Source of the DNA: Nostoc sp. 106C
GTDB lineage: Bacteria; Cyanobacteriota; Cyanobacteriia; Cyanobacteriales; Nostocaceae
Reading direction: 5' to 3'
Assembly: GCF_002154725.1 (NCBI RefSeq)
Contig: NZ_MTAW01000013.1
Span: forward strand, 1 to 64,000
DNA: 64,000 nucleotides
Part shown: positions 23,290 through 44,720 of the stretch, in pieces
Layout of the letters: each line of letters opens with the position of its first letter
Numbering within the stretch: position 1 is the stretch's first letter
Made by a program: the position numbers and the translations under genes
The notes under the pieces: model-generated
Database searches by the model: none
Told to the model about the DNA's origin: nothing
What the model saw: only the letters and a program-made list of their open reading frames with translations

Positions 23290-23325
23290 ATTTTTTATCT
23301 ACATTCTTATTGGTAAGACATTGTT

Positions 23326-24096
23326 ATGAGTTATGGCTTTTACATTTATGGAATTTTGACCTTGCCTGCTCCGGAAGATTTAAGTTTAGAAGGGTTAGAT
23401 CGGCAACCCGTACAAATTAAAATTTTGGATGATTTTGCAGTAATCTACTCCGAAGCACAGCAAGAGCGTTATTTAGCAAGCCGTCGTAATCTGCTAAATC
23501 ATGAGAAAGTCCTTGAGGAAATCATGCAAGCAGGCGATGTCTACGACGGGCTACGCCAACGCAATTTACTACCCGTGCAATTTGGACTTTTGGTTGCAAG
23601 CTGGGAAACGTTTTCACAACAATTAATTCGTCCTCATCAAGAAGAATTGACGCAATTGTTAGCAAAGTTATCGGGCCGTCGAGAAGTTAGTGTCAAAGTT
23701 TTTTGGGATACCGAGGCAGAAATTCAGGGGTTGTTAGCAGAAAATCCAGATATCAAAACCGAAAGGGATAAATTAGCGGGTCAACCTCTGAATATGGAGC
23801 AGGTGATTCAAATAGGACAAGCCATCGAACAAGGAATGAGCGATCGCAAACAAGGCATCATCAATTTATTTCAAGGTACGCTCAACTCCATTGCGATCGA
23901 TGTGGTGGAAAATACTCCCCAAATGGACACAATGATTTACAACGCAGCTTACCTAATTCCTTGGGAGGCAGAATCCCAATTTAGCGAACAGGTTGAAGCA
24001 CTCGACCGTCAATTTGAAGAACGTTTGCGAATTCGCTACAACAATTTTACTGCCCCCTTTAACTTTGCTCGTCTACGATTATTCAGTTCTAACTAA
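23326..24096 (+). CDS. gvpF: Gas vesicle protein GvpF/GvpL (first copy)
   Basis: A 256-residue GvpL/GvpF-family protein, a scaffold that binds GvpA during nucleation. It starts SYGFYIYGILTLPAPEDLS and contains LLNHEKVLEEIMQAGDVYDG, NLLPVQFGLLVAS and VSVKVFWDTEAEIQGLLAE. The C-terminal half with NTPQMDTMIYNAAYLIPWEA and FEERLRIRYNNFTAPFNFA is typical of GvpF. A second, clearly different GvpF/L gene lies at 26148, on the other side of the AAA ATPase. Confidence 0.9.
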   Translation: MSYGFYIYGILTLPAPEDLSLEGLDRQPVQIKILDDFAVIYSEAQQERYLASRRNLLNHEKVLEEIMQAGDVYDGLRQRNLLPVQFGLLVASWETFSQQLIRPHQEELTQLLAKLSGRREVSVKVFWDTEAEIQGLLAENPDIKTERDKLAGQPLNMEQVIQIGQAIEQGMSDRKQGIINLFQGTLNSIAIDVVENTPQMDTMIYNAAYLIPWEAESQFSEQVEALDRQFEERLRIRYNNFTAPFNFARLRLFSSN

Positions 24097-24201
24097 ACAG
24101 CAATAAAAATTGAAAATCAAAAATTATTGAAACTTGGGAATTTTTGGGAAATTAAATTTTTCTTACTTTATAGCAACAAGACACAACAAGATTTTTCACC
24201 C

Positions 24202-24236
24202 AGTCCCCAATCCCCAATCCCCAATCCCCAGTCCCT
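24202..24236 (+). repeat. CCCCAAT heptamer tandem repeat
   Basis: About four to five copies of the 7-mer CCCCAAT/CCCCAGT between gvpF and the AAA ATPase gene. This is the short tandemly repeated repetitive sequence type known from Nostoc and relatives. Confidence 0.85.
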
Positions 24237-24251
24237 ATTTAAGTAAAATCA

Positions 24252-26075: not shown

Positions 26076-26088
26076 TGATTCATCTTAT

Positions 26089-26121
26089 AGATCCCCGACT
26101 TATTTAAGAAGTCGGGGATCT
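26089..26121 (+). repeat. 33-bp palindrome, copy 1
   Basis: AGATCCCCGACTT (26089-26101) and AAGTCGGGGATCT (26109-26121) are perfect 13-bp arms with a 7-nt loop. A second copy with the same arms is at 48216-48248. It lies between the AAA ATPase and the second gvpF/L gene. Confidence 0.75.
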
Positions 26122-26147
26122 GAACACCCCCAACCCATCGAAAATTT

Positions 26148-26837
26148 ATGTCAATATACGCCTATGCTCTTTTAGTACCGATCGCATCACCGCTTGTTCT
26201 ACCTGTAGGGATGGAAAGGAATACTGAACTTGTTTACTCTTCTGGTGTAGCTGCGATCGTAGAGCCGGAAATCTCACTGGAAGCATTACAAGCCACAGAT
26301 GAGCGTTTACTTCAAGCTGTATTAACCCACGATCGCGTAATTCTAGAACTCTTTCAACAAACTCCCCTTCTTCCCCTACGTTTTGGGAGCGGTTTTAACT
26401 CTGTTGAAACACTACTGAAACATCTAGAAAAACACCAAGAGCAGTATCTAGACACCCTAACTCAGCTAAGAGACAAAGTTGAGTACACTTTAAAAGCTAC
26501 ACTTTGTAATTTGCCTGATGAGTCTGACACTATTGATGCTAGGGGGAAAGCCTATTTATTAGCTAAAAAACAACGCTACCAAACACAGCAAGCATTTCAA
26601 GCACAACAATCCGAACAGTGGGAACTCCTGAACCAGTTAATTCTCAAAACATATTCAAATGTTATCTGTGAGACTCGACAGCCAGATGTGCGGCAAATTC
26701 ACTTTTTAGCACAGCGCAACAATTCAACGGTCAGTACGCAGCAATTTTCTCTTTGGCAAGTACAATCCTCGCATTGGCAATTAGCACTGAGCGAACCTTT
26801 GCCACCCTATCATTTTATCAAAAATACTATCATATAA
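26148..26837 (+). CDS. gvpL: Gas vesicle protein GvpL/GvpF (second copy)
   Basis: A 229-residue GvpL/F-family protein. It begins SIYAYALLVPIASPLVLPVG and has TELVYSSGVAAIVEPEISLE, LTHDRVILELFQQTPLLPLR and ARGKAYLLAKKQRYQTQQA, the last being a strong family motif. It is shorter than the first copy and only loosely similar to it, so the two probably have separate roles (GvpF-like and GvpL-like). It is followed by a terminator hairpin before gvpA. Confidence 0.88.
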   Translation: MSIYAYALLVPIASPLVLPVGMERNTELVYSSGVAAIVEPEISLEALQATDERLLQAVLTHDRVILELFQQTPLLPLRFGSGFNSVETLLKHLEKHQEQYLDTLTQLRDKVEYTLKATLCNLPDESDTIDARGKAYLLAKKQRYQTQQAFQAQQSEQWELLNQLILKTYSNVICETRQPDVRQIHFLAQRNNSTVSTQQFSLWQVQSSHWQLALSEPLPPYHFIKNTII

Positions 26838-26866
26838 ATTCATAAAAAATAATATTTAAAACTTTC

Positions 26867-26900
26867 CAAGAAAAAATCATCTCGTCTTGATTTTTTCTTG
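26867..26900 (+). terminator. Terminator between gvpL and gvpA
   Basis: CAAGAAAAAATCA (26867-26879) pairs with TGATTTTTTCTTG (26888-26900), 13 bp with an 8-nt loop, followed by AATTTTTTTG. It should end the gvpN-to-gvpL transcript and leave gvpA to its own promoter in 26901-27078. Confidence 0.75.
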
Positions 26901-27078
26901 AATTTTTTTGTCTAAAAAAATGTTGTAAACTTTTCAGTATTTTTTGATTCTTTGCTATTTAACTTATATTTTTGGGAAAACTAAATACAGGAAGAATAAA
27001 ACACATTGTGTAAGTTTTACCTACTGCTCGCGCGGAGCAAGATGAAACCAATAATTAGATTTATGTGAGGAAAATAAA

Positions 27079-27300
27079 ATGGCTGTTGAAAAAGTTAACT
27101 CATCTTCAAGTCTGGCTGAAGTTATTGACCGCATTTTAGACAAAGGAATTGTAGTTGATGCTTGGGTGCGGGTTTCTTTAGTTGGTATTGAACTGCTAGC
27201 AGTCGAAGCTCGGATTGTAATTGCTTCAGTTGAAACTTACTTAAGATATGCAGAGGCAGTTGGTTTAACATCTCAGGCTGCTGTTCCATCTGCTGCTTAA
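27079..27300 (+). CDS. gvpA: Gas vesicle structural protein GvpA
   Basis: A 73-residue main shell protein of the gas vesicle, highly conserved: [38 protein letters not shown] and [20 protein letters not shown]. The GAGGAAAATAAA leader gives a good ribosome-binding site. Only one gvpA copy is in the window. The terminator upstream lets it be transcribed apart from the accessory genes, as fits a protein needed in large amounts. GvpA polymerises in the cytoplasm to form the gas-permeable wall. Confidence 0.97.
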
Positions 27301-28544: not shown

Positions 28545-29969
28545 TTGGGGAATTCTAATGTGAATCAATTGATCGAGCAACTTCAAACTAAATTATTCAC
28601 AGGCAGGCTGAATCTTGGAGCCAGGGATGGGCCAACTTGGACGCTATATTTTCGTTTAGGACGATTAATTTGGCAGGCTGGCGGTTCTAATGCCGATGAG
28701 CGATGGCGACGATACTTGTCGCAATACTGTCCTAATTTGGATGTGACAAAGTTGGAGGGGCTTGTCTCTCCCCAAGAAAATTATCGCGAGTATTGCATTC
28801 TTGCTAAATTGCGAGAACAAAAATTAATCGAACAACAACAACTTGTTAGCCTGATTACAAACTTAATAGCTGAAGTCTTGTTTGATATAATGCAGTTCGT
28901 TGAAGCCAGAAGAAATGGCAACAATCCAGCAGGACAATTGTCATATACTACCGTTGTTGGTGAAGTTCCGGGGTTTCTCCTGGCTGTAATACCAACTGAG
29001 GAAGTCTGGAAACAGGCTACACAAGCCTGGCAAGAATGGCGAGATGCAGGACTGGCAAGTTACTCGCCTAATTTATATCCTGTCATTCAAAAACTTGAGC
29101 TACTCCAAGGACAAGCATCCTCTAAAGTGATTATTTCTCTAGTTGATGGCACAAAAACTTTACGAGGTATAGGGCAAAAAATCGGCCGGGATGCTTTAGC
29201 TTTGACTCGGGTATTGATGCCATTGGTAAAAGCAGGAGCGATCGCTTTCTCACTCACTCCAAGCCCCAGAAAAATTGGAATTAGTCAAGAAACTGGCAAC
29301 CCATCGAGTGCAGTTAATAATCCCAATTCTTCACTGAAGACAGAAGAGAAAACTGTTATACAAACTGCTCCCCCAGCGGCTAGCAAACAAATTGTCACTC
29401 CGTCGAGTGCAGCTAATAATTCCAATTCTTCACTGAAGACAGAAGAGAAAACTGTTATACAAACTGCTCCCCCAGCGGCTAACAAACAAATTGTCACTCC
29501 GTCGAGTGCAGTTAATAATCCCAATTCTTCACTGAAGACAGAAGAGAAAACTGTTATACAAACTGCCCCCCCAGCGGCTAGCAAAGCAATTATTGATGTC
29601 TCAAGGCCTTTAGTAGCCTGTGTTGATGATAGCCCTACAATCTGCCGTAGTTTGGAGGAAATTATGACCCATCAAGGTTATCGCTTTGTTGGCATTCAAG
29701 ACTCTTTGACGGCAGTTTTAAAGCTAATTAAAAGCAAGCCCGACTTCATTTTTTTGGATCTTTTGATGCCAAAAGTGAATGGCTATGAAATTTGTTCTCA
29801 AATCCGTAAAACCCCAAGTCTCAAAGATGTGCCGGTTGTCATCTTAACGGGGAAAGATGGAATAGTAGATCGGATGCGGGCAAAATTAGTTGGGGCAAAT
29901 GACTTTTTAGGTAAACCTGTAGAGGCAGAAAAAGTACTCAATATGCTTCACAAGTATTTAACCGTTTAA
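28545..29969 (+). CDS. PatA-type response regulator (DUF4388/PATAN plus REC)
   Basis: About 474 residues. The N-terminal PATAN/DUF4388-like region begins VNQLIEQLQTKLFTGRLNLG and TWTLYFRLGRLIWQAGG. The C-terminal receiver domain spans about residues 355-474, with CVDDSPTICRSLEEI, the phospho-acceptor in DFIFLDLLMPKVNG and VVILTGKD ... GKPVEAE. A linker contains three 33-residue repeats. TTG at 28545 or GTG at 28560 may be the true start; no strong ribosome site decides. It heads the chemotaxis-like operon and corresponds in position to ptxA/pixG. PatA-type proteins act on motor (type IV pili) output; here probably for phototaxis. Confidence 0.88.
   Translation: MGNSNVNQLIEQLQTKLFTGRLNLGARDGPTWTLYFRLGRLIWQAGGSNADERWRRYLSQYCPNLDVTKLEGLVSPQENYREYCILAKLREQKLIEQQQLVSLITNLIAEVLFDIMQFVEARRNGNNPAGQLSYTTVVGEVPGFLLAVIPTEEVWKQATQAWQEWRDAGLASYSPNLYPVIQKLELLQGQASSKVIISLVDGTKTLRGIGQKIGRDALALTRVLMPLVKAGAIAFSLTPSPRKIGISQETGNPSSAVNNPNSSLKTEEKTVIQTAPPAASKQIVTPSSAANNSNSSLKTEEKTVIQTAPPAANKQIVTPSSAVNNPNSSLKTEEKTVIQTAPPAASKAIIDVSRPLVACVDDSPTICRSLEEIMTHQGYRFVGIQDSLTAVLKLIKSKPDFIFLDLLMPKVNGYEICSQIRKTPSLKDVPVVILTGKDGIVDRMRAKLVGANDFLGKPVEAEKVLNMLHKYLTV
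29301..29597 (+). repeat. Three 99-bp in-frame tandem repeats
   Basis: Units start at 29301, 29400 and 29499, each 99 bp (33 codons; SSAVNNPNSSLKTEEKTVIQ core) and nearly identical. They extend the flexible linker between the PATAN and REC domains of the PatA-like protein. The near-identity suggests recent expansion. Confidence 0.92.
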
Positions 29970-30140: not shown

Positions 30141-30503
30141 ATGAAAAAAGTTCTATTAGTTGAAGATAGCCTCACAGAATCCGAAAAGATGACACGTTAT
30201 CTGGAGCAAGGAGGATATTCAGTTTATGAAGTTCGCAGTGGTGAAGAGGCTCAACTGCGGTTGAAACAACAAAAACCTGACTTGATTTTACTGGATTTGA
30301 TTTTACCAGGCCAAAGTGGATTTGAGTTCTGCCGCAAGTTGAAAGCCGATCCGATAACAAAAGCAATCCCGGTAGTGATTTGCTCAACTAAAAACACAGA
30401 TGTTGATAGAACTTGGGGCAATATGAGTGGTGCCGATGCCTATTTAGTCAAACCTGTAGATGAAAATACCTTGCTCCAGACTGTTAGTAAATTTATTCGC
30501 TAA
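30141..30503 (+). CDS. CheY-like response regulator
   Basis: A 120-residue single REC domain. Asp52 in LILLDLILPGQSG is the phosphorylation site; Glu8-Asp9 (LLVEDS) bind magnesium, with the conserved Lys in AYLVKPVDE. No output domain, so it works by protein contact, as in pilus-motor control. A clear ribosome site precedes ATG. Second gene of the operon, matching ptxB/pixH. It is 15 nt from the CheW gene. Confidence 0.94.
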   Translation: MKKVLLVEDSLTESEKMTRYLEQGGYSVYEVRSGEEAQLRLKQQKPDLILLDLILPGQSGFEFCRKLKADPITKAIPVVICSTKNTDVDRTWGNMSGADAYLVKPVDENTLLQTVSKFIR

Positions 30504-30517
30504 AGGAAACTGGGGCA

Positions 30518-31051
30518 ATGGTACAGAGCAATGATAGCTTTAGAGCGCTACCCATTAATAGCCAATTTCCACTTGAAAACTCTTCCCAAGGAAACAACCA
30601 GAGGTTTTTAAGATTTCCGTTAAATGGAAAGGTAAATGGGTTACTCCCACTAGCCGATCTGCGGGGAGTAATTCAAGTTGCACTCACAGAGATTTTACCA
30701 GTGCCGCAGGTAGCAGAATTCTTGTTAGGCATCATGAATTGGCGGGGAGAAGCTATCTGGATTCTTGATTTAGGAGGTTTACTGGGAGCAACACACTGGT
30801 GTAGGCGAGAAAATGTACGCAACTCTGGCATGGCGATGCTTGTTCAAGTCCAGAATCAAACTGTCGGGCTATTGGTGGAGCAAGTCAATACCATTGAAGT
30901 TTACGATTCCCAAGAGCGATTAGCGATTTCGGCATCGATGTTACCCACCCGACTCAAATCGTTCTTGCAGGGTTACTTTATGGATGCTCAAGGTAGCCCT
31001 TTGATGTTAGTTGACACCTATGCTGTGATTCAAGCCCTTCAGTCTATTTAA
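30518..31051 (+). CDS. CheW-like adaptor
   Basis: A 177-residue CheW domain protein that couples chemoreceptors to CheA. The fold signature is RFLRFPLNGKVNGLLPLADL, IMNWRGEAIWILDLGGLLGA and VGLLVEQVNTIEVYD. It has an extra N-terminal segment of about 25 residues. Third gene of the operon, matching ptxC/pixI, and directly upstream of the large receptor. Confidence 0.93.
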   Translation: MVQSNDSFRALPINSQFPLENSSQGNNQRFLRFPLNGKVNGLLPLADLRGVIQVALTEILPVPQVAEFLLGIMNWRGEAIWILDLGGLLGATHWCRRENVRNSGMAMLVQVQNQTVGLLVEQVNTIEVYDSQERLAISASMLPTRLKSFLQGYFMDAQGSPLMLVDTYAVIQALQSI

Positions 31052-31102: not shown

Positions 31103-34100
31103 ATGGTAACGCAACCCAATCTTACACCCAACCAACCACACTCAAATTTCAGCAACGGTCATAAGGATACTGGTAATGGGCATACCGTTGATGTACTAGC
31201 TAAACAACAAATCTCCTCTACTCTAGAAGAACTGCGAGCTGAACTGGATCAAGCTGATTGGGTGGAAACAGGGCCATTGCGAGACAGAATCCGCAAATTA
31301 AAAGAACTGGTAAGTGTGTTGCCTTATCAAGACGGAGGAGATGGATTCGAGGTAGAGCAAGTACAGGCGATCGCCAGCAAAATCCGTCAATTTTCCGATC
31401 TAGAAACCTTGCTTACTACTGCTGTCATAGAGGTACAAAGCGCCCTGCAAGCCGATCGCGTGGTGGTGTATGAGTTTACGAATCCGACGCTGGGGATAGT
31501 TGCTGCGGAGTCGATGAGGGATGGCTTTACCCCAATGCTCAAGGAAAAACTGCCCGCCATCACTTTTGGGTTAGGTTCTGTCAAGCTTTATCAACAAGAA
31601 AAATTAGTAGCAATTCCAGATACCTACACTGCTGGCTTGTCCCCTTATCAAAAGCAGCTCGTGGATCGGTTTCAGATCAGAGCTTGTTTGAGCTTGCCGA
31701 TTTTAACAAAAGATGGGGTTTGGGGTTTATTGGTAGTGCAACAATGTACTGCACCTCGCCAGTGGCAGAATGCTGAAATTCGGTCATTAAAATTGCTCGC
31801 GCAGGAATTAGAAGCGCAACTGCAAGTTGCCATGATTCAAGCTACATTGCAACAAGAAGTAGAAAAAGACCAAATCCTTACTGGTGTAGCAAATAAAATT
31901 CTCCAGTCCAAAGATGTGGATACCATCTTTCGCGTTGCCACCCAAGAAGTACGACAGTCCTTAAAATGCGATCGCGTGGCAATCTATCGTTTCAATCCTG
32001 ACTGGAGTGGAGAATTTGTTGCTGAATCTGCTGGATCTGAGTGGGTTTCTCTGTTAGAAGAACAGCGAAACAATCCAGCAATTGTCAAGAACGTTAACTA
32101 TTGCAGTGTTAGGAACTTTGCAGACGAAGGGGGATTGGCTGGGACAACAGGGCGATCGCACAGTGCAGATAGCTACATTCAGCACACCCAAGGCAAAACT
32201 TTCCATCGCGGACAGATATATCGAGTCACTAATGATATATACAGCGCTGGTTTTTCAGACTGCTATATCAAAATTTTAGAAGCCTATCAAGCCAAAGCAT
32301 ACATTATTGTTGCTATCTTCCAAGGAGAACAATTGTGGGGCTTGCTCGCAGCCTATCAAAATTCGCAGTCTCGTCAGTGGAAAGATAGTGAAGTGCGAAT
32401 GATGGTGCAGGTTGCAACTTTGTCTAGTATTGCTATTCAACAGTTGCAATATCAGCAACAACTTTATAACCGTTCTGAAGAGTCAGCCAAACTTGTTGAA
32501 CGAGAACGTACTGTTTTCCGCATTATCGAAAAGATTGGGCAAGCAAAGGATATTCACAACATTTTCCGCACTGCAACCCAAGAGTTGCGGCGATTTTTAA
32601 AATGCGATCGCGTTGTCGTTTATCAATTTTATCCCGACTGGAGTGGGGAAGTTATTGCTGAATCTGTGGCTGCTGGTTGGTTGTCACTTTTGGAGATGCA
32701 GGAACAAGACGGCATTTTGAAAACAGGTCTGATATCTTCAGAGCGTTGTAGTGTTAAGGATTATGGCTCCCCTGCAAAACTTGATACCGATACATATCTC
32801 AAGGAAACCCAGGGTGGAATGTATACCAAAGGAACGCGCTTCCGCAAAGTCAACGATATTTATGCTGCTGGTTTTTCATCTTGCTATATAGAAGCATTAG
32901 AGAAGTTCCAAGCCAAAGCGTACATTATTGTTCCTATTTTCCGCGCTGGTAAGCTTTGGGGTTTGTTAGCAGCGTATCAAAATTCTGATGTGCGGAAATG
33001 GACTGAGGAAGAGACTGGCGCTTTATTGCAGATTGGCGAACCTTTAAGCATTGCCCTCCAGCAAGCTGAATATATCGAACAGCTACGGTTAAAAAATTTA
33101 GAAATGACCCAAGTAGTTGAAGTCGAAAACGCACTTGCACGAATGGCGGATCGAATGCGTCATTCCCAACAGCCAGAAACTATCTACCGCACTACCTTGG
33201 CAGAATTGCGGCAGTTGTTTAAATGCGATCGCCTCGCAATATATCGCTTCAACTCTGACTGGAGTGGTGAATTTATTGCCGAATCTGTAGGAAGTGACTG
33301 GGTGCCTCTGATTGGCCCCGATATCAAAACCGTATGGGAAGACGAACACCTACAGCAAACCCAAGGCGGACGCTATCGCCACAATGAAACTTTTGTCGTC
33401 AATGACATCTATACTGTTGGTCATGCCCAGTGCCATATTGACCTGCTGGAACAGTTTCAGGTTAAAGCCTACACCATCGCCCCGATTTTTGTTGGCAACA
33501 AACTTTGGGGTTTATTAGGAGCTTACCAAAATAGCGGCCCCCGCCAGTGGAATTCTGAAGAGGTGCGATTACTGACTAAATTGGGCATTCAGTTGGGATT
33601 AACCGTGCAGCAAGCCGAGTACATCGAACAACTGAAAACGAAGAATGCTGAGTTGGCGCGGACAGCAGAAGAAGAACAAGTGCTGACGGCGATGGTGGAA
33701 AAAATCCGTCAAGCCCAGGATACAGACACTATTTTCGAGAATGTGCTGCCAAGTTTACGCAAACAACTACAGTGCGATCGCCTAGCAGTATTTCGCTTTA
33801 ATTCCGACTGGAGTGTGGAGTTTGTTGCTGAATCCGTAAAAGATAAATGGTTGTCTTTAGCTGGTTCCGACATCAAAACAATTTGGATGGACGATCACTT
33901 GCAAGAAACTCAGGGCGGACGCTATCGCAATCACGAAACCTTTGTTGTCGATGATATTTACGCTGTCGGTCACGTTCAGTGCTACCTAGAAATATTAGAA
34001 AAAATCCAGGCCACAGCTTACGCGATCGCTCCTATCTTTACTGGCAGCAAACTCTGGGGCTTTTTAGGAGCATACCAAAATACTGGCCCTCGGCAGTGGA

Positions 34101-36349
34101 AATCCAAGGATGTGCAACTGTTGCGAAAACTAGCTTTGCAAATGGGTATAGGCTTGCAGCAAATTAGGTATATCGAACAGCTTAAGAACAAGAATGCAGA
34201 GTTAGCGCGAACCGCAGAAGGGGAACGAGCCTTAACAAGGCTGGCGGAAAAAATTCGCCAAGCTCAAGAGCTAGATACAATTTTCCGCAATGCCCTACCA
34301 GAATTGCGATCGCACTTGGAATGCGATCGTCTTGCGGTGTATCGCTTCAATCCAGATTGGGGTGGGGAGTTTATTGCCGAATCCGTAAGTCGTGAATGGG
34401 TGGCTTTGGTTGGCCCCGATATCAGGACTGTATGGGAAGACGAACACCTCCAACAAACCCAAGGTGGACGCTATCGCCACAACGAGACGTTTGTAATCAA
34501 TGACATTTACACTTCTGGTCATGCCCAGTGCCACTTGAAAATTCTCGAGCAATTCCAAATTAGAGCCTATATCATCACCCCGATTATTGCCGGCAACAAG
34601 CTCTGGGGTTTGTTAGGAGCATATCAGAACGACGGGCCACGGCAATGGCAAGATAATGAAATCAACTTGGTAGCCAAAATTGGTACGCAGTTTGGGGTTG
34701 CAGTCCAGCAGTCGCAATACTTACAACAAACCTTAAACAAGAATGAGGAACTGACAAAACTGGCAGAACGGGAAGTAGCAAACGCCCGATTTTCCTATCG
34801 CTTGCCAAGTCGGTTAACAGAGATGGCTCAAAGTGATGGTGATGTTCTGGAATTTGTCCAGTTTGCTACTCATGAACTTCGTCAACTGCTGAAAGTAGAT
34901 CGAGTTGGGGTTTACCGTTTTGAGCCTGATTGGTCTGGAGAATTCGTTGTTGAGTCTGTAACCGGGGATTGGCCGAAGCTTGTGGGGACTAGCCTTGCCA
35001 GAGTTAGAGATACGTTTCTCCAGTACAACAAAGGCGGGCGTTATGCGCGCAAAGAAAGTTTGCGGGTTGACAATATCTATACCATCGGTCATGACGAATG
35101 CCACATCCAATTGTTAGAAACGTGGGGAACTAAAGCCTACATGATTGCTCCGATTTTTCAAGAAGATCGGCTATGGGGGCTGATGGGAGTTTATCAAAAT
35201 AGCGCAGCGCGCCAGTGGGAGCAATCAGAGGAAGATGTTCTCAACCAAGCCAGCGTCCAGATTGGTATTGCCCTCAATCTTGCAGAGTACCTAAAACAGG
35301 TGCGTACTCAAGAGCAGCAGCTAGCAGAAGCAGCAGAGCGCGATCGCACTGCAAGGGAAAAACTGCAACAAGGAGCAATACGCGTTCTCATGGCTTTAGA
35401 ACCATCCTTCAGAGGCGATCTCACCGTTCGCGCGCCCCTATCTGAAGATGAAATTGGAACAATTGCTGATGGTTACAACACTACGATCCAAAGTTTGCGA
35501 GATTTAGTCCGACAAGTGCAGATTGCTGCCAGCAGGGTGAGTGAAACTTCCAGCAACAACACCACCTCAGTAGTAAAACTATCTGACCAAGCTCAACAGC
35601 AAGCAGAACGCCTCGAAAACGCTCTGGAACAATTACAAATGATGGTAACTTCCACCCAGGTAGTCGCTACTGATGCCCAAAGAGTAGGACAGGCGGTTCA
35701 AAGAGCTAATAACACCGTCCAAGCTGGCGATTCTCTGATGGAAAAAACCGTAGATGGCATTTTGGAGATTCGGGAAACGGTGTCGGAAACAGCGAAGAAG
35801 ATTAAACGCCTCGGTGAAGCTTCTCAGAAAATCTCGAAAGTAGTGAGTTTGATTGAAAACTTTGCCACTCAAACTAATTTGCTAGCACTCAATGCGGCGA
35901 TTGAGGCTACCCGCGCCGGAGAATACGGTAAAGGCTTTGCGGTGGTTGCCGATGAAGTTCGTTCCTTGGCTTATCAGTCAGCGAGTGCCACCACAGAAAT
36001 TGAGCGACTTGTGCAAGAAATTCAAAGTGGAACCAACGAAGTTACCGCAGCAATGGAAGTCGGGATTACCCAAGTTGTCCAAGGCTCGAAATTGATCGAT
36101 GAGACTCGTTATTCTCTGAGTGCGATCGTGGCAGCTACCAACGAAATTGGTGGACTGGTACAAGGAATTACTCAAGCAGTTTCCGCTCAAAGCCAGCAAT
36201 CTCAGATATTGACAGAAGCGATGATGGATGTTTCGGCGATCGCCCGCAAGACTTCGCAAAGTGCAATGCACATTTCCGAGTCTTTTGAGGAACTACGGAT
36301 GACTTCACAACAACTGGAAACCAGCGTTAGCCAGTTCAAAGTTGACTAA
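31103..36349 (+). CDS. ptxD: Seven-GAF photoreceptor MCP
   Basis: A 1748-residue soluble methyl-accepting protein with no transmembrane helix. Seven GAF domains (about 96-240, 260-440, 470-650, 675-830, 858-1010, 1041-1200, 1235-1385) precede a HAMP-like segment and an MCP signalling domain (tip [20 protein letters not shown]). GAF2 to GAF7 keep a cysteine at the bilin position: Cys387, 594, 777, 960, 1143 and 1333 (CY or CH). GAF2 and GAF3 carry a second cysteine (334, 549) in an insertion. GAF4-6 have the WxDxHLQxTQGGRY segment of red/green-type sensors. GAF1 has Tyr instead and probably binds no bilin. Layout and count match ptxD of Nostoc punctiforme; the match is from memory. Confidence 0.93.
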
Positions 36350-36523: not shown

Positions 36524-39500
36524 ATGAACACCTATCCCAGTAATCAAGAGCAGTTAGAGCAGGCTTTTCTGGCTGAAGCGGCAGAGTTGTTGCAAACTAT
36601 TGAGCAGAGTCTTATCGGTTTACTTGATGAAAAAACAACCGAAAAAGTTCACGCCTTGATGCGAAGCGCCCATACTCTCAAAGGGAGTGCTGCCAGCGTT
36701 GGACAAGAAACGATTAAAACAATTGCCCATCATTTGGAAGATGTATTCCAGGCGTTATACCCACAAGAACTGGAAATCGATCCAGAATTGGGTGCTTTGC
36801 TTCTAGATGCTTATGAGTGCCTGCGAACTCCCTTGAGCGCAACCTTGATGGGCTTATCCTACAACGAGGCAGAAATACTCGATAAAACTGCCTCAATCTT
36901 CGCCCAACTCCAACATAAACTAGGCGACTTTTTTGGTCGTGAGGCTCCGCTTCCCAGTTCGGAAGAACTTGGCTTTGATGTGGTAGAGTCAATTTTTTCC
37001 GGGAGTGTAACCCAGGATTTGCAACAGCTAGAAGCTGACATCCAAAGCCAAGATTTGCAACAAATTCAGACAACACTCAACTCTCAAGCAGAATTTTTTG
37101 CCGAACTAGCAGCATCTTATAGCTTATCTGGATTGGAAGAGATTGCTCAAGCGACCCTAAACGCCCTCAAAGCGCATCCAGATAAAGTACGGCAAATCGC
37201 TCAGGTGGCTTTAGAACATTTTAAAGCGGCTCAAGCAGCAGTACTTGCAGGCGATCGCACTCAAGGGGGAAAAATATCTCCACAATTGCGAAAATGGGCA
37301 GGGTTAACTACTCTTGTCCCAAAACCTCAAGGGCAGCCAGTTTCAATAAATGCCCAACCAACACAAACAACTACAACTGAGAATCAGCCATCCCCCCTTC
37401 TCAGTGCCAGCGAATCAGAATCAATTTGGTCGTTTTTCCCGAAGCGAACCGATCGCTCTGTAGCGAAAGCACCAGAGGTACTCGAACCAATTTCTCAGGA
37501 TTCGGTAGTAGCCCCCTCTGCCATAGATCGGATTTTACAGTCAATCTGGATAGGAGACCAAGAGACATCCTGCCGCTACTCAGATTCAGAACGGCCAGCC
37601 TCTCCACCACCAGCACCAAGCCTCCAGGCTCAGTCATCGGCATCACTTCCCAGTATCCGAGTGGCGATCGAACAGCTTGATCGCCTCAGTCATACGATTG
37701 GGGAATTGCTCATCAACGAAAACCAACAAAACCTACAATCTAACCACATCCACAAAGTAGCTCAAGAGACTCTACTACAGTTTTTGCACTGTCAACAACA
37801 ACTTAGTAAAGTTTCTACTTGGTCGGATCGACAACTGCTTCCCGAACGCGCAAACCAGCGATACCCACGTTGCTCAATTGTCCGTCCTTCCCCAACTGCC
37901 CAGGCACAATCTAATTTTGATGCCTTAGAAATGGATAGCTATAGCGAGTTGCACATTCTCCTGCAAAATCTGACAGAAGACATGGTGCAATTAGGAGAAC
38001 GGATTGAGACTTTTAATACTTTAGTTCAGCAATCTCGCTTCAGTCTCGGCAAGCGCAAACAACTGCTCTCAGGAGCGCAGGAAGATTTGCTGCAAGCGAG
38101 AATGGTGCCCCTGGGAACAGTGTTAAATCGCTTTCCCCGCCTCTTGCAACAGATGGTAGCAACTTATCATAAGCCTGTTGAACTCAAGCTTGGCGGCACC
38201 AAGGTACTGGTGGATAAAGCCATTTCCGAGCAGTTGTACGATCCTTTGCTACACATGATTCGCAATGCCTTCGATCACGGCATTGAACCAGTAGAAACCC
38301 GTAGACAGCAAGGTAAACCAGAAACCGGAACAATTACAATTCAAGCCTATCACCAAGGCAACCGCACTACTATTGAGGTACGGGATGATGGTCGAGGCTT
38401 TAACTGGGAATCCATTCGTCATCGAGGTATAGAAAAACACTTTTTAACATCGGAACAAGCCGCCTACGCCTCCGAAGACCAACTAGCAGAGTTATTATTT
38501 GAACCGGGCTTTTCTACCGCTAACCAGGTTGGTGAGTTATCTGGTCGCGGTATCGGCTTAGATGTCGTTCGCACGCAATTGCAAGCTTTACAAGGTTCGA
38601 TTTTGGTGCGATCGCTTTCAGGGCAAGGAACCACCTTCACCCTGCAATTGCCTCTGAGCTTAACAACAGCACGTTTGCTCGTTTGTCAATCTCAAGGTAT
38701 TACTTATGCCTTGCTGTCTGAAGGAATTAGCCAGGTTTTATTACCGCAGCCAGACCAGATTCAAGTGCAGCAATCTTTACACGGGCAAGGCATCCAAAAA
38801 TTCTGGCAGTGGGGAGAAGGACAAAATCAGCAACTAGTTCCCATCCGCCCGCTTGCCAATTTGCTGGATTACAAATATCCTTTATTCACCCAAGACCACA
38901 ATTTAACCCTCAGTCCTTTTCCAGTCAAACAACGCAACACCGTCGAACCTCTGCTACTGTTGCAAACAGAGCAGCAATACCTGTGTTTGCAAGTCGATCA
39001 GATTTTAGTCGAGCAGGAATTAGTAATTAAATCCCTCGGCAGAGTCCTGAGTTTACCTAGTTACATCCAAGGTTACAGCGTGTTGGGAAATGGTAGTCTC
39101 ACCCTCATCGTTGATCCGTTGGAGTTAGTTCGTCAAACCTGGGAGGCAGATATGATGTCGGCTTCCCCGGCATCAAGTCTTGCAACTAAACTATTGCCCG
39201 CGCCAGAGCCAGAACAGGCTCTAGAGGGACAGCAATTGGAGTTAACTATAACGCAACCGCAGCAACAGCCGATGGAAGTGAATACAGCCGTTGCTCAACC
39301 TAACCGACAGACGGTGTTAGTGGTGGAAGATTCGGTTGTCCAAAGGCAAAGTTTAGTGCAGACGCTCCAGAAAGCCGATTATCAAGTGTTGCAAGCAGGC
39401 GATGGTCGAGAGGCGATCGCGCAAATGCTTCAAAACGGTGATGTCAATCTAGTGATTTGTGACATTGAAATGCCACGTATGAATGGATTTGAGTTCTTAG

Positions 39501-39673
39501 AACACCATCGCCAAGATGAGCGTTTGGCAGAGATTCCTGTGGTGATGCTGACTACCCGTAGCGGCCAGAAGCACCGCCAATTAGCTTTAGCTCTAGGGGC
39601 AAAAGCTTACCTGACCAAACCCTATTCAGAACAGAATTTCCTAGCCGCGATCTCCGAATTGGTTAATACCTAA
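36524..39673 (+). CDS. Hybrid CheA histidine kinase with C-terminal REC
   Basis: A 1049-residue CheA. Hpt: phosphohistidine His50 in MRSAHTLKGSAASVG. The P2-like and low-complexity linkers (about 260-380) are followed by dimerisation, HATPase (N-box Asn581 in LLHMIRNAFDHGIEP; DDGRG at 621-625) and a CheW domain (LLVCQSQGITYALLSEGISQ). A C-terminal REC has LVVEDSVVQRQSLVQ and VICDIEMPRMNGFEF. All key catalytic residues are present, so this is the active kinase of the operon. It matches ptxE/pixL. Autophosphorylation would feed the PatA and CheY regulators. Confidence 0.94.
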   Translation: MNTYPSNQEQLEQAFLAEAAELLQTIEQSLIGLLDEKTTEKVHALMRSAHTLKGSAASVGQETIKTIAHHLEDVFQALYPQELEIDPELGALLLDAYECLRTPLSATLMGLSYNEAEILDKTASIFAQLQHKLGDFFGREAPLPSSEELGFDVVESIFSGSVTQDLQQLEADIQSQDLQQIQTTLNSQAEFFAELAASYSLSGLEEIAQATLNALKAHPDKVRQIAQVALEHFKAAQAAVLAGDRTQGGKISPQLRKWAGLTTLVPKPQGQPVSINAQPTQTTTTENQPSPLLSASESESIWSFFPKRTDRSVAKAPEVLEPISQDSVVAPSAIDRILQSIWIGDQETSCRYSDSERPASPPPAPSLQAQSSASLPSIRVAIEQLDRLSHTIGELLINENQQNLQSNHIHKVAQETLLQFLHCQQQLSKVSTWSDRQLLPERANQRYPRCSIVRPSPTAQAQSNFDALEMDSYSELHILLQNLTEDMVQLGERIETFNTLVQQSRFSLGKRKQLLSGAQEDLLQARMVPLGTVLNRFPRLLQQMVATYHKPVELKLGGTKVLVDKAISEQLYDPLLHMIRNAFDHGIEPVETRRQQGKPETGTITIQAYHQGNRTTIEVRDDGRGFNWESIRHRGIEKHFLTSEQAAYASEDQLAELLFEPGFSTANQVGELSGRGIGLDVVRTQLQALQGSILVRSLSGQGTTFTLQLPLSLTTARLLVCQSQGITYALLSEGISQVLLPQPDQIQVQQSLHGQGIQKFWQWGEGQNQQLVPIRPLANLLDYKYPLFTQDHNLTLSPFPVKQRNTVEPLLLLQTEQQYLCLQVDQILVEQELVIKSLGRVLSLPSYIQGYSVLGNGSLTLIVDPLELVRQTWEADMMSASPASSLATKLLPAPEPEQALEGQQLELTITQPQQQPMEVNTAVAQPNRQTVLVVEDSVVQRQSLVQTLQKADYQVLQAGDGREAIAQMLQNGDVNLVICDIEMPRMNGFEFLEHHRQDERLAEIPVVMLTTRSGQKHRQLALALGAKAYLTKPYSEQNFLAAISELVNT

Positions 39674-39720
39674 GAGAAGGCAGGAGGCAGAGGGGCAGAG
39701 GGGCAGGGGAGCAGAGGAGT
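39674..39720 (+). repeat. G-rich tandem repeat, left of the four-helix gene
   Basis: GGCAGAGG/GGGCAGAGG units between CheA and the four-helix-bundle gene. A complementary C-rich block is at 40124-40160 on the other side, so the pair forms inverted repeats around the gene. Confidence 0.8.
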
Positions 39721-39722
39721 AG

Positions 39723-40115
39723 ATGGAGATGGAAAAAGAACCAATTAAAAATCATCAAGACTTGAAAGTTTATCAAATGGCATTCGATGCAGCTATGAAA
39801 ATCTTTGAACTCTCTAAAAAGTTTCCTGTCGAGGAGCGGTATTCATTAACCGATCAGATTCGTAGATCGTCACGTTCTGTTTGTGCAAATCTAGCTGAAT
39901 CTTGGAGAAAACGTAGATATGAAGCAGCTTTTGTGGCTAAACTCAATGACTGTGAAGCAGAGGCAGCAGAAACACAAACATGGATTGAATTTGCTGTTAA
40001 GTGCAATTATTTGGATGTTGAATTAGGCAGAGAATTATATGGAATCTACAATCGCATCTTAGGTGGTTTGGTAAATATGATTACTGACCCTTCACCTTGG
40101 CTAATGAAGCGTTAA
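39723..40115 (+). CDS. Four-helix bundle protein (23S rRNA IVP family)
   Basis: A 130-residue protein of the 23S rRNA intervening-sequence protein family (four-helix bundle). HQDLKVYQMAFDAAMKIFEL, FPVEERYSLTDQIRRSSRSV and CANLAESWRKRRYEAAFVAK are the family segments. Homologues are found inside rRNA intervening sequences, in diversity-generating retroelements (Avd) and scattered in cyanobacterial genomes. No retroelement reverse transcriptase is near. It interrupts the phototaxis operon and is flanked by inverted G/C-rich repeats, so it may be a small mobile cassette. Its role is unknown; nucleic-acid binding is likely. Confidence 0.9.
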   Translation: MEMEKEPIKNHQDLKVYQMAFDAAMKIFELSKKFPVEERYSLTDQIRRSSRSVCANLAESWRKRRYEAAFVAKLNDCEAEAAETQTWIEFAVKCNYLDVELGRELYGIYNRILGGLVNMITDPSPWLMKR

Positions 40116-40123
40116 TATTCTTT

Positions 40124-40160
40124 CTCCCCTGCCCCCCTGCTCCTCTGCCCCCCTGCCCCC
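40124..40160 (+). repeat. C-rich tandem repeat, right of the four-helix gene
   Basis: CTCCCCTGCCCCCCTGCTCC-type units, the reverse complement of the G-rich block at 39674-39720. With it they bracket the four-helix gene. Confidence 0.8.
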
Positions 40161-40176
40161 TAACACCGACCGACTT

Positions 40177-41202
40177 ATGCTTAACACTCCCTTTCCGTTT
40201 AAGCGATTATCTGGCACTGTGACCGAAAGCGACTCATTACGAGTCGTTGTTTTTGCGATCGCAGACTATTTATTTGCCCTGCCAGTTGGTGCAGTTCTCA
40301 AAGTGATTGCTTGTCCTCCTATTAGCAGTACGGTTGAAAGTGGTATCGGGATGGTCGATTTGGGAGCGCAAAGTATCACAATTGTGGATTTGCGCCAGAA
40401 GTTAATTCCGGAAATACAAAGCCAACAAACGCACCAAGTTCTCTCTGCGGTTGACACTTCAGGACGCTTTTTACTTCTGACTCAAACCCGCACTGGAGAA
40501 CTTTGTGGCATTCCTGTGGACAAGCCCCCTGCTTTAATCGATATTCCTTTGTCAGCTGTGCGTCCAGTGCCTTGGTCTTATCGGCAAGTAGCGGAGTTAA
40601 ACTTTGTTAGCCACATGGCTGTCTTGTCTGTAGCTCCAAACGAAGAACCACTCAAAGTCCTGCTTCTAGGCATGAACCAGATATTGGCTGAGAAGTTGGG
40701 CTTGCCCGGAACAACCTCAACCTTGTCTCCTGGAGTGACACCATGCGAACAACGGCAAAGATTTCTGCGTTTTTCCTTGAGCGATCGAGGAAGTGGATTG
40801 CTACCATTCCACTCAGTAGTAGACATGATTCATATCGCTAGCCAAGAAATTTCTCCAGCCCCGGCCTTACCAAGTTGGATTTTAGGTTTCTATAATTGGC
40901 AAGGACAGATGTTGCGGCTGGTTGACTTAGAACATTTGCTTGGTTATGCACCGCTTTTTAAGCGACAGTCACGACCAGAAAAGCCAATAGTTCTGGTTGT
41001 TGAGCTTCAAAATCAGGTAGTCGGGTTTTTAGTCGCTCATGTCTTAGATGTAGAGTGGCAGGATTTACAGCAAGTACAATCGGCACCAACCGACTTTTCC
41101 CCCAACAAACTACTAAATTTTGTTCGAGGTATTCTGCCAGGCGATCGCTGGATTTTAGACACCAAAGCGATCGCCCAGACATTGCAATGGCAAACCCACT
41201 GA
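40177..41202 (+). CDS. Double CheW-domain protein
   Basis: A 341-residue protein with two tandem CheW domains. The first (about 20-160) has LRVVVFAIADYLFALPVGAV and LLLTQTRTGELCGIPVDKP. The second (about 185-341) has RFLRFSLSDRGSGLLPFHSV, LGFYNWQGQMLRLVDLEHLL and IVLVVELQNQVVGFLVAHVL. Dimeric CheW proteins can bridge receptor arrays. It starts the second gene set of the operon. The intervening region from CheA holds the four-helix gene. Confidence 0.88.
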   Translation: MLNTPFPFKRLSGTVTESDSLRVVVFAIADYLFALPVGAVLKVIACPPISSTVESGIGMVDLGAQSITIVDLRQKLIPEIQSQQTHQVLSAVDTSGRFLLLTQTRTGELCGIPVDKPPALIDIPLSAVRPVPWSYRQVAELNFVSHMAVLSVAPNEEPLKVLLLGMNQILAEKLGLPGTTSTLSPGVTPCEQRQRFLRFSLSDRGSGLLPFHSVVDMIHIASQEISPAPALPSWILGFYNWQGQMLRLVDLEHLLGYAPLFKRQSRPEKPIVLVVELQNQVVGFLVAHVLDVEWQDLQQVQSAPTDFSPNKLLNFVRGILPGDRWILDTKAIAQTLQWQTH

Positions 41203-41231
41203 TTTAACTTGATGCTGCCAAGGAGTTTTCT

Positions 41232-42479
41232 GTGACGATCGCAACTTTAGACCCTAATTTTGAAACCCAGCCTGACAATCAAATCCAGATAGAAGAAATT
41301 TTGGCTAATGTGGCTGTACTCAAAGCAGTCTTTCAATCTGCTAAGGGGCCAAAGGTCGCTCAATTGCAGCACAAGGTAAGTCAAATCGAAGCTTTTATCC
41401 AAGCTTTGACTAAGGATTCGCCCAGCGATAATGATGACAATGTGCAAAGAGCTTTTCACCTCCAGCGAGAACAACTGGCGGCAATTGCTCGGCAAATGCA
41501 GCAGGCAAAAGGCCAAACTGCACTTTTGGAAGCTACAGTCACCGCCCTGCAAGATGTTCTCAACGCCGATCGCGTCCTGATTTATCGTTTTGAGGCAGAT
41601 AATCGCACTCGAGCGATCGCGGAAGCTATACAACCGGGTTGGACATCCTTGCTCAACCAATCCCTACCGATAAATTTGTTTGTTACTAAACCCGATATTA
41701 GTGACCCAACTGAAGTATTAGAACTAACCCCGCGCCAACAGCAATTTTGGCAACGCTTTCAGGTGCAAGCGAGTCTGTGCTTGCCCTTAATTGTCAAACA
41801 ACAGCCTTGGGGTTTGTTAGTTATTCAGCATTGCCTTGCACCCCGACAATGGCAAGAAGCAGAGCGCAGTTTGCTGCAACAAGTAGGAATGATGTTGACA
41901 ATTAACTTGCACTCGGCTGAAATAGTAGCTCCACCTATTCAACAGCTGTCACCGCCTCCTGAAAAGGTTGAATCCTGCGATCGCTCACAGTTATTATTGC
42001 CATTGCAGCAGGTGAGCCAAGCCGTACAAGAAGGAGTAAGAATCGTCGAGCAAGAGCGCGAGTATTTAATGTCTATTCAAGATACTGTTGCTTTTACAAA
42101 TAAACAGCTGCAATACCTTGGTGAATTTTGTCAGCAAGCTTCTGGCTTTGTTGGTCTTGTGGAAGGCTTGAGTAGCAAAATTCAGATTTTGTCGTTAAAT
42201 ACAGCTATTGAAGCAACAAAAGCTAGCGAACAGGAACAAGGTTTGCTAGCTGCTGCCGAACAGGTGGAAATTCTCGCCCGCCAAGCCCGCGAAAGCACCC
42301 TAAATATAGAGGAATGGTTTCAAGAACTCCAAGTGGTAGCAGCAGACGTTACTTCTGCTATCGAACCGTGCGATCGCCAAATCAGTGCAGGGCTGGAGTC
42401 AATCGCGCAAATCCAGGAGCAATTGCGAGCGATCGCCGAGATTGCTGCTTGTACCCTCAAATCAATGTCGAAGCCATAG
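41232..42479 (+). CDS. Short GAF-MCP protein, probably non-photosensory
   Basis: A 415-residue protein with one GAF domain (about 95-235; ATVTALQDVLNADRVLIYRF, LPLIVKQQPWGLLVIQHCL) and a shortened MCP signalling helix pair. The tip IQILSLNTAIEATKASEQEQ is related to that of the large receptor. The bilin-site cysteine is absent (FWQRFQVQASLCLP), no transmembrane helix is present, and no HAMP is clear. It may modulate the receptor array rather than sense light. It begins with GTG at 41232 and is coupled to the following CheA-like gene. Confidence 0.82.
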   Translation: MTIATLDPNFETQPDNQIQIEEILANVAVLKAVFQSAKGPKVAQLQHKVSQIEAFIQALTKDSPSDNDDNVQRAFHLQREQLAAIARQMQQAKGQTALLEATVTALQDVLNADRVLIYRFEADNRTRAIAEAIQPGWTSLLNQSLPINLFVTKPDISDPTEVLELTPRQQQFWQRFQVQASLCLPLIVKQQPWGLLVIQHCLAPRQWQEAERSLLQQVGMMLTINLHSAEIVAPPIQQLSPPPEKVESCDRSQLLLPLQQVSQAVQEGVRIVEQEREYLMSIQDTVAFTNKQLQYLGEFCQQASGFVGLVEGLSSKIQILSLNTAIEATKASEQEQGLLAAAEQVEILARQARESTLNIEEWFQELQVVAADVTSAIEPCDRQISAGLESIAQIQEQLRAIAEIAACTLKSMSKP

Positions 42480-42503
42480 AATTGTCACAAACCAGGAGTT
42501 TCG

Positions 42504-44720
42504 ATGAGTACCGATTTTGTCCCCCAACCGCAGAACGACGATCGCTTTCTAGAAGAAGCGATCGATCTGTTACTGTTCTTGGAGCAGGAGTTGCCTAACT
42601 ATACAAAAGACAGTAACCCTGGTACAGCTTTGGCTCTCATGGAAGCTGCTGGCTCTCTGCATTCTATTGCCATAGCAGCCGAGCTAGATACGATTGCTAT
42701 AGTTGCGGCTGCACTAGAAGAGATTTTTCAGCTTTTGTATCAGTATCGAGCAACTATTGACGGCACAATCGCCTCTTTGTTGTCGGAAGGATTAGACTGC
42801 CTACAAATGCTGCTGATGGCATTTTTAACAGCCTCGAAAATTGACGAAGTAGAAATTCTTGAGCGCATGTCTGCTATTGTTGCTCGTCTGCAAGCAGAGT
42901 TTGGCGATTCCCAGGAAACAAACCTTGAGACATCGGGACATCAACCAGTTATTCAGTTTGGCGATTCCTTGGCCGAGGTAGAATCTTCTGCGGCTCTACC
43001 AGAGCAAGTTATAGTTAAAAACCAGGAAAGTCTTGACAGAGAACTAGTAAGTGAAACCAAACATGACCTTAGTAGCTTTGGTCAGGTAAATACTGAGCAG
43101 CTTCCCGTTAAGGTAGGAGAACTAGCAAACCTAGAGGAGGGAGATTTTCAGGCTTGGTTGGGAGATTTTTTCCTGCCTGCTGAGACATCTGAAGCATCCC
43201 TAGTTAAATCTTCGAGCGATCGCCATACACTTTCTTTGCAAGAATCCATTCCCATCGTTGTTGCAACCAGTATTCCAGCCGCCACACCCATTAATATTGA
43301 ACATCTCGAACAACTAAACGCACTGATTGCAACATTACTAATTAACTATAATCAGCAAGCTTGTCAGGAAGAACAACAGCAACATACGATTGGGCAGTTG
43401 CTCCGACAAGTTAAACGATTACAACGCCTGTTGGACAATCTACAGGAATGGTCAGGACGTTTAGCAGCAATTTCAGATACCCTTTCCCCTCTAGCCGCTT
43501 CTCGCTCTGGGCAATTGTACAGTACTCTGCAATCTGTTTTAGCCCAAGCATCTCAGGTGGCATCAACTGTTCATTCCCTGAATAACGATCGTTACCAACT
43601 CAAACAGGAACTCATACAGCAAGAAAATTTACTTAATCGTTCTGCCGATTTAGTCAAAAAAGTTACAACTATTCCTTTAAAAGAAGCCTTAGAACCCTTG
43701 CATCGGCTTTGGTCTCAGTTACAAGCTCTACAAGATAAGTCGGCTAGACTACATTTACAAATTAGCGATATCCAAGTCGATCGGGCGTTAAGCGATCGCC
43801 TCCGTGTCCTGCTGTTGCATATAAGTTGCTATCTGCTAGAGCAAAGTATAGAGTCTTGCCAAACACGCCAACAACTAGGTAAAAATAGCAACGGTATTAT
43901 CGAAATTCAAGTTTACCAGCAGGGAAATCAACTAATTATTGATGGCTGTGATGATGGCGCAGGACTTAACTTATCTCAAATCTATCAACAGGCTTTAGCT
44001 CAAGGATTCGCCCTGACAAAACCAGGGGATATCCTACAAGTGAGCGAGCTGATACTTGAACCAGAGGTTTCATCTGTTTTGTGCGATCGTGCTGCCTTAG
44101 AGTTAGGAGCAGAATTAACTGAAGTTTGCAAGCAATTAACAGCTATTCAAGGAAGAATAGTATTGAAGTCTAAAGCTGGACATGGTACAGCCTTCTCCCT
44201 CCAAATTCCTCTAGATCAAAAAATTGCTCAACTTATCGTCTGCCAAGCCAACTCCAGAGTTTATGCATTTGTTGCCGATTCCGTAGAGCAGATTTGTCTA
44301 TCCCAGTCCGAACAAATTCTCCAAACTCAAGCGGGACGTATGTTATTTTTGCAGTCTTCTGGCAGCTTTGGTGGCTTCCTTAGTGGCGATCGCGAGCATC
44401 CAACAACAGAAATGCTCGTTCCTATCCACTTATTGACTGATGTGCTGATTTGTCCTAATCGCCTTCCCACCCCAGTTACCACTTACAGTACAGATACACT
44501 AAATGATTTCAAGCAGAATAAGCCGTTATTAGTATTTCGTTACTTGAACAAACGATGTGCTTTAGAAGTAGATTGCATTATCGGCAAGCAATCCTCTGCA
44601 ATCCATCCTCTAGGGGAAACAACCCCAGTTGCTCCTTATATCCTAGGAACTAGCCTTCTTGCTAATAGGCAACTTAGCCTTGTTTTGGATGGTCGCCTTT
44701 TCACAAAATCTCTAACTTAA
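42504..44720 (+). CDS. CheA-like protein lacking kinase residues
   Basis: A 738-residue CheA homologue that seems catalytically dead. Its Hpt aligns without gaps to the active CheA, but position 50 is Gly instead of the phosphohistidine (LMEAAGSLHSIA against LMRSAHTLKGSA). The N-box reads LLHISCYLLEQSIE against LLHMIRNAFDHGIE, so the ATP-binding Asn is Tyr. The later GHGTAFSLQIPL and the C-terminal CheW domain remain (LIVCQANSRVYAFVADSVEQ). No REC domain is fused. It may act as a scaffold or inhibitor of the active kinase. Last gene of the operon. Confidence 0.85.
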   Translation: MSTDFVPQPQNDDRFLEEAIDLLLFLEQELPNYTKDSNPGTALALMEAAGSLHSIAIAAELDTIAIVAAALEEIFQLLYQYRATIDGTIASLLSEGLDCLQMLLMAFLTASKIDEVEILERMSAIVARLQAEFGDSQETNLETSGHQPVIQFGDSLAEVESSAALPEQVIVKNQESLDRELVSETKHDLSSFGQVNTEQLPVKVGELANLEEGDFQAWLGDFFLPAETSEASLVKSSSDRHTLSLQESIPIVVATSIPAATPINIEHLEQLNALIATLLINYNQQACQEEQQQHTIGQLLRQVKRLQRLLDNLQEWSGRLAAISDTLSPLAASRSGQLYSTLQSVLAQASQVASTVHSLNNDRYQLKQELIQQENLLNRSADLVKKVTTIPLKEALEPLHRLWSQLQALQDKSARLHLQISDIQVDRALSDRLRVLLLHISCYLLEQSIESCQTRQQLGKNSNGIIEIQVYQQGNQLIIDGCDDGAGLNLSQIYQQALAQGFALTKPGDILQVSELILEPEVSSVLCDRAALELGAELTEVCKQLTAIQGRIVLKSKAGHGTAFSLQIPLDQKIAQLIVCQANSRVYAFVADSVEQICLSQSEQILQTQAGRMLFLQSSGSFGGFLSGDREHPTTEMLVPIHLLTDVLICPNRLPTPVTTYSTDTLNDFKQNKPLLVFRYLNKRCALEVDCIIGKQSSAIHPLGETTPVAPYILGTSLLANRQLSLVLDGRLFTKSLT

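Follow-up and report, generated by a model that had tools for sequence, protein, structure and literature searches.

A ptxD orthologue with seven GAF domains and a conserved, probably non-switching GAF5 in another Nostoc-group genome

Locus and receptor gene

The 64,000-nucleotide stretch of DNA analysed here (the window) belongs to an 8.66-Mb Nostoc-group genome assembled into 240 contigs; its placement in the Nostocaceae was inferred from the organisms of its best matches. On the forward strand, which also carries the neighboring taxis genes, positions 31103..36349 hold a single intact open reading frame (ORF) encoding a 1748-aa receptor. Its seven GAF domains precede an MCP signaling domain: Pfam detects seven PF01590 stretches and one MCPsignal domain (residues 1532-1712; 35696..36238), and NCBIfam gives no match above its cut-off for the receptor. 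The ORF is embedded in the gene order CheY-CheW-MCP-CheA, with gas-vesicle (gvp) genes directly upstream on the same strand (21352-27300). The gene is almost certainly the orthologue of Nostoc punctiforme ptxD, whose product, a cyanobacteriochrome-MCP photoreceptor, serves hormogonia in positive phototaxis. The finding is the known PtxD, already described, in another genome and not a new system. PtxD (NpF2164) is reported to comprise seven GAFs, of which at least six bind bilin and two contain a second Cys, and to cover six colors; an N. punctiforme ptxD mutant loses positive phototaxis (PMC5812497).

The receptor was compared with its orthologues in a set of 25 full-length proteins, composed of the window protein and those of 24 of the 26 named loci retrieved in one scan of species genomes; the remaining two loci each hold half of a gene that is split over two contigs. 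A wider set of 89 GAFs (seven from the window, 80 from 14 loci and two PDB references) was used for a quick domain tree with Shimodaira-Hasegawa-like approximate likelihood ratio test support only. NpR6012g4 (6BHN) and AnPixJg2 (3W2Z) served as alignment references. Purifying selection acts on every GAF of the receptor, as the ratio of nonsynonymous to synonymous substitution rates (dN/dS) is 0.13-0.23 over all seven (25 sequences), GAF5 (0.23) and GAF3 being the least constrained.

Bilin-linking cysteines

A sequence-only reading of the window had assigned bilin-binding cysteines to six of the seven GAFs, at residues 387, 594, 777, 960, 1143 and 1333, and had asked for an alignment to known cyanobacteriochromes. 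All six numbers are exact in the translated ORF, and the alignment places these residues on the chromophore-linking Cys of 6BHN and 3W2Z. Equally exact are the second cysteines proposed for an inserted loop of GAF2 and GAF3 (Cys334 and Cys549), and the long insert is present in GAF2 and GAF3 alone (36 and 31 residues, respectively, versus 8 in red/green GAFs). Each of the eight sites is Cys in 25/25 full-length sequences, including the window. Within the 89-GAF set, an insert-site segment of at least 28 residues contains a Cys in 19/19 cases and a short segment in 0/70; with counts of this kind at each site, the conservation is not due to chance. The insert Cys also occurs in 31/31 rows of an alignment whose rows were picked as insert-type, and likewise in three further insert-type GAFs outside that alignment.

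GAF1 (residues 78-243; 31334..31831) is predicted to be pigment-less. As the earlier reading had stated, Tyr replaces the bilin Cys (Tyr182, codon 31646-31648, in the alignment to NpR6012g4 and AnPixJg2), and the alignment to 6BHN and 3W2Z also reveals that the WxD segment is missing. In the tree, GAF1 groups with other first-position GAFs in a 14-member clade without any Cys at the bilin site. The top match of GAF1 in a PDB sequence search is 6OAP, a green-absorbing dual sensor histidine kinase, which makes GAF1 a member of this fold that lacks the Cys.

Pocket types of the bilin-binding domains

The Cys-keeping GAFs had been divided into two classes, but the pocket residues indicate more than two. 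Judged by these residues, the receptor combines a putatively pigment-less GAF1, the insert-Cys domains GAF2 and GAF3, the Trp-type domains GAF4 to GAF6 and a Trp-less GAF7 whose helix-Phe site holds a Trp. This site also distinguishes GAF5 from GAF4 and GAF6. All six bilin GAFs have the WxD Asp in 25/25 sequences.

GAF2 (residues 258-450; 31874..32452; Cys334 at 32102-32104, Cys387 at 32261-32263) and GAF3 (residues 470-657; 32510..33073; Cys549 at 32747-32749, Cys594 at 32882-32884) possess both the canonical Cys and a loop Cys in the contexts CSVR (Cys334) and CSVK (Cys549), CXXR/K being the form given for insert-Cys proteins (PMC5240096). They cluster with insert-type GAFs (support 83, not starred). 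Their proposed role as violet/blue sensors is already in print for the orthologous domains: NpF2164g2 (near-UV/blue) and NpF2164g3 (violet/orange) are both insert-Cys cyanobacteriochromes (PMC5240096), for which a second thioether to bilin C10 with a short-wavelength dark state has been published (PMC5240096, PMC5578081). In the GAF2 orthologue this thioether is present in both states (PMC5578081), and the domain therefore stays at short wavelengths. The GAF2 pocket has a beta2 Phe and a helix Tyr (25 sequences), and the beta2 residue of GAF3 is Val or Ile in 24/25; this small residue fits the wide pocket, tied to longer-wavelength states, that was proposed for NpF2164g3 (PMC5240096). PDB sequence searches with GAF2, GAF3 and GAF7 returned cyanobacteriochromes as top matches, and the structure predicted for GAF2 has a cyanobacteriochrome GAF fold (predicted local distance difference test (pLDDT) 76, predicted template modeling score 0.76; best match 3W2Z, E 3e-17). 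Placing Cys334 by structure was dropped, as most of the modeled insert has a pLDDT below 50.

GAF4 (residues 674-846; 33122..33640; Cys777 at 33431-33433), GAF5 (residues 857-1029; 33671..34189; Cys960 at 33980-33982) and GAF6 (residues 1040-1212; 34220..34738; Cys1143 at 34529-34531) form one clade with their copies from locus L057, a 79%-identical relative (support 99, starred). All three had been read as red/green types, which fits the sequences of GAF4 and GAF6 but needs correction for GAF5. GAF4 and GAF6 have the WxDxHLQ motif, the Cys-His pair, the beta2 Phe and the helix Phe. Each of these residues is found in 25/25 sequences for GAF6; for GAF4 the counts are 23/25 (Trp), 23/25 (motif His), 20/25 (His after Cys) and 25/25 (the rest). 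The GAF6 orthologue NpF2164g6 is a red/green domain (647 and 550 nm) that reverts in the dark with a half-life of about 1 min (PMC12856669). GAF5, a red-absorbing type by its sequence, lacks the helix Phe of the trapped-twist pocket and has Ile968 instead, in 25/25 sequences. Its orthologue NpF2164g5 is red/green by sequence and binds pigment, but shows strong fluorescence and no photoconversion (PMC5578081, PMC6121604).

The helix residue of GAF5 is also Ile in L057, where the beta2 residue differs (Leu), and Cys960 and Trp928 of GAF5 are invariant. NpF2164g5 has no helix Phe; neither has SPI1085g3, which nevertheless switches (PMC6121604), and this leaves it unproven that Ile968 by itself causes non-switching. 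Given the helix Ile in all 25 sequences, the non-switching state may be an old, conserved feature. This conserved, probably non-switching GAF5 is the sole fresh lead of the analysis, and a modest one. By analogy with the fluorescent orthologue, one could picture GAF5 as a built-in antenna or filter that would absorb red light and pass energy to, or screen, the flanking switches GAF4 and GAF6. We consider this role unlikely: the lack of photoconversion in the fluorescent orthologue, the helix Ile in 25/25 and L057, the fixed Cys960 and Trp928 and the dN/dS of 0.23 are compatible with it, whereas the switching of SPI1085g3 and the Leu at beta2 in L057 count against it. Among the literature matches listed, no title concerned energy transfer between GAFs.

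Gene conversion among GAF4, GAF5 and GAF6 was considered separately and rejected. In 30-codon windows across 25 genes, the mean DNA identity of paralogues (0.48-0.85) was lower than that of orthologues (0.90-0.96) in every window, which argues against recent homogenization; the GAF4/GAF6 core came nearest, with single genes reaching up to 0.90.

GAF7 (residues 1224-1403; 34772..35311; Cys1333 at 35099-35101) adjoins the MCP domain. The absence of its Trp motif, already recognized in the earlier reading, extends to 25/25 sequences, which have Val at the WxD Trp site and Trp (Trp1341) at the helix-Phe site. GAF7 belongs to a clade of nine MCP-adjacent GAFs (support 98, starred) with the helix Trp in 9/9 and the Cys in 8/9. 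Among the GAF7-type domains of loci L057-L070, the member from L061 has lost the bilin Cys yet keeps the helix Trp. The tree thus indicates more turnover among the middle GAFs of these receptors than at the two ends. The domains that deserve measurement are GAF5, which is kept and non-switching in the known case, and GAF7, adjacent to the MCP domain and with a helix Trp of its own.

Identity of the receptor

Two residues of NpF2164 have published numbers, C546 of g3 (PMC5240096) and L962 of g5 (PMC7504144). They correspond to C549 and L965 of the window protein, an offset of 3 that was compared at these two published positions only, and in all of the 1745-aa orthologues (6/25 sequences) the equivalent residues are C546 and L962. 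The GAF5 stretch is also encoded by primers listed in PMC7504144; besides the designed change, their translation differs from the window in two places (GYVQ for GHVQ and QAKAY for QATAY). Residue numbering, primers, domain anatomy and the gvp/che gene set match NpF2164, and we therefore identify the receptor as the known PtxD. The suggestion that one receptor could read several colors has accordingly been published for the orthologue, which switches between six (PMC5812497).

Several points weigh against this interpretation. The evidence for orthology consists of the residue numbers, the primers, the domain anatomy and the named Nostoc orthologues and does not include the sequence of N. punctiforme itself, and synteny is no test of function. 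No spectrum was found for the protein of this strain. In the GAF2 model, slice residues 80-99 (protein residues 337-356), most of the insert after Cys334, have a pLDDT below 50, and the model therefore does not place Cys334 near the pocket. Finally, the published g5 does not switch, from which it follows that not every Cys-bearing GAF is a color switch. The literature searched contained no measurements under the names NpF2164g1, g4 or g7; searches for N. punctiforme locus tags or multi-GAF color sensing returned nothing, and ptxE-G gave only an unrelated match.

That some Cys-bearing GAFs carry pigment without switching, leaving fewer colors than the number of cysteines suggests, is compatible with an identity as PtxD, and we rate it as possible, at somewhat less than even chances. 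NpF2164g5 is a precedent (PMC5578081, PMC6121604), and Ile968 at the helix site and the missing Trp of GAF7, both in 25/25 sequences, point in the same direction; on the other hand, the orthologue is reported with at least six bilin GAFs and six colors (PMC5812497), and every GAF is under purifying selection. A PixJ-type receptor of like build that would be a paralogue of PtxD with another task is highly improbable: GAF-MCP relatives are abundant in the Nostocaceae (match at E ≤ 1e-100 in 190/217 genomes; those beyond the orthologues among the matches listed have 41-59% identity and are mostly part-length), but 32/216 other genomes contain a full-length match of 79-94% identity while the next full-length one among the matches listed has 47%, the named orthologues have the same operon neighbors as far as their contigs extend, and the published residue numbers match the window receptor.

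Gene neighborhood

Based on Pfam, the genes between the gas-vesicle cluster and the receptor encode a DUF4388 and receiver response regulator (28545..29969), which we presume to be of the PATAN-CheY type, a CheY-like receiver (30141..30503) and CheW (30518..31051); a CheA hybrid kinase with Hpt, HATPase, CheW and receiver domains follows the receptor (36524..39673). The neighbors CheY, CheW and CheA and the upstream gvp genes are those expected of PtxD. The gas-vesicle cluster comprises two Gas_vesicle proteins, GvpK fused to a Gas_vesicle domain, two GvpF/L and two AAA proteins. In N. punctiforme, the upstream genes gvpA and gvpB are transcribed together with ptx, whose expression is mainly sigJ-dependent (PMC6495340).

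Downstream of cheA, the region 40177-44720 contains a second, degenerate taxis set, made up of a CheW-domain protein (40177..41202; two Pfam stretches), a short GAF-MCP (41232..42479; Pfam, alignment) that is pigment-less as its GAF has no bilin Cys, and a CheA-like protein without kinase motifs (42504..44720; alignment). In an alignment of the latter to CheA, both the N-box Asn and the G2 box are missing from 19/19 sequences (18 named loci and L057); a residue other than His occupies the phospho-His site in 18/19 of these, with L025 keeping the His, and also in the window. All 18 named loci with a contig long enough to cover this position have the gene, which L057 has at 50% identity. Two MCPs of the ptx cluster have been detected as proteins in N. 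punctiforme (PMC9620832). This downstream set looks like a conserved pseudo-kinase scaffold.

The spacer between cheA and cheW2 (39674-40176) harbors a 23S_rRNA_IVP/four-helix-bundle ORF (39723-40115) flanked by inverted short repeats. Among 19 named loci with both flanks, four share the spacer at 92-97% DNA identity (the ORF of L025 looks broken), in four more a long spacer holds a distant relative (about 30% protein identity), and in the other 11 the spacer is short, at 79-289 bases. The window genome contains one full copy. The element looks like a small mobile insertion.

Distribution

A ptxD orthologue (at least 79% identity over the whole protein) was found in 33/217 genomes of the family, including that of the window and one split over contigs; the scan scored two candidates per genome, so this number is possibly a slight undercount. 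Identity to the window is about equal across genera, at 90-94% with one orthologue at 79%. In the genus of the window, 2/8 listed genomes have the orthologue, which indicates a patchy distribution. The color set-up of PtxD is no quirk of N. punctiforme, as the eight thiols are kept in all 25 full-length receptors. What is new beyond this is minor and consists of GAF5, conserved and probably non-switching, together with the side findings.

Proposed signaling and comparison with known systems

Six GAFs would bind phycocyanobilin via the canonical Cys. The insert Cys of GAF2 and GAF3 would add the second thioether to bilin C10, which would break conjugation and move absorption to the near-UV/violet. 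GAF4 and GAF6 would act as red/green switches, GAF5 would be pigment-bound and probably non-switching, GAF7 would be a Trp-less bilin GAF adjoining the MCP, and GAF1 would be pigment-less. Z/E isomerization of the bilin would alter the MCP signal, which may pass through the neighboring CheW and CheA to the CheY-like regulators and on to type IV pili. The window genome has one match to the ferredoxin-bilin reductase family (Fe_bilin_red) and two heme oxygenase matches; a supply of pigment is therefore likely. These bilin-synthesis genes were observed here, along with the sequence, alignment, orthology and operon. The g2, g3 and g6 colors, the lack of photoconversion of g5 and the phototaxis phenotype are in print for the orthologue. 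We infer the colors of g4 and g7, the combination of the domains and the phosphorelay.

GAF4 is 60% identical to NpR6012g4 and 59% to AnPixJg2, and GAF6 58% and 59%, respectively; both share the Trp, Asp, beta2 Phe, helix Phe and Cys-His with these references. Unlike them, GAF5 shows Ile in place of the helix Phe and a Tyr following the Cys, and in GAF7 the WxD Trp is missing and a Trp replaces the helix Phe. GAF2 and GAF3 share the canonical Cys and the CXXR/K insert loop with the insert-Cys cyanobacteriochromes NpF2164g3, NpF2164g2 and NpR1597g2 (near-UV/blue), Mbr3854g4 and Mbl3738g2 (near-UV/green) (PMC5240096), and nothing was found that separates them from the NpF2164 domains. Synechocystis PixJ1 of the tax1 cluster is likewise a cyanobacteriochrome-MCP with CheY, CheW and CheA (PMC5812497), but differs by having two GAFs and two transmembrane domains. 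The closest known system is PtxD/NpF2164 of N. punctiforme (Campbell et al. 2015, as cited in PMC5812497 and PMC6495340), with the same GAFs, the second Cys pair, the MCP, a che-like operon, gvp genes upstream and a numbering offset of 3; the window differs in coming from another strain.

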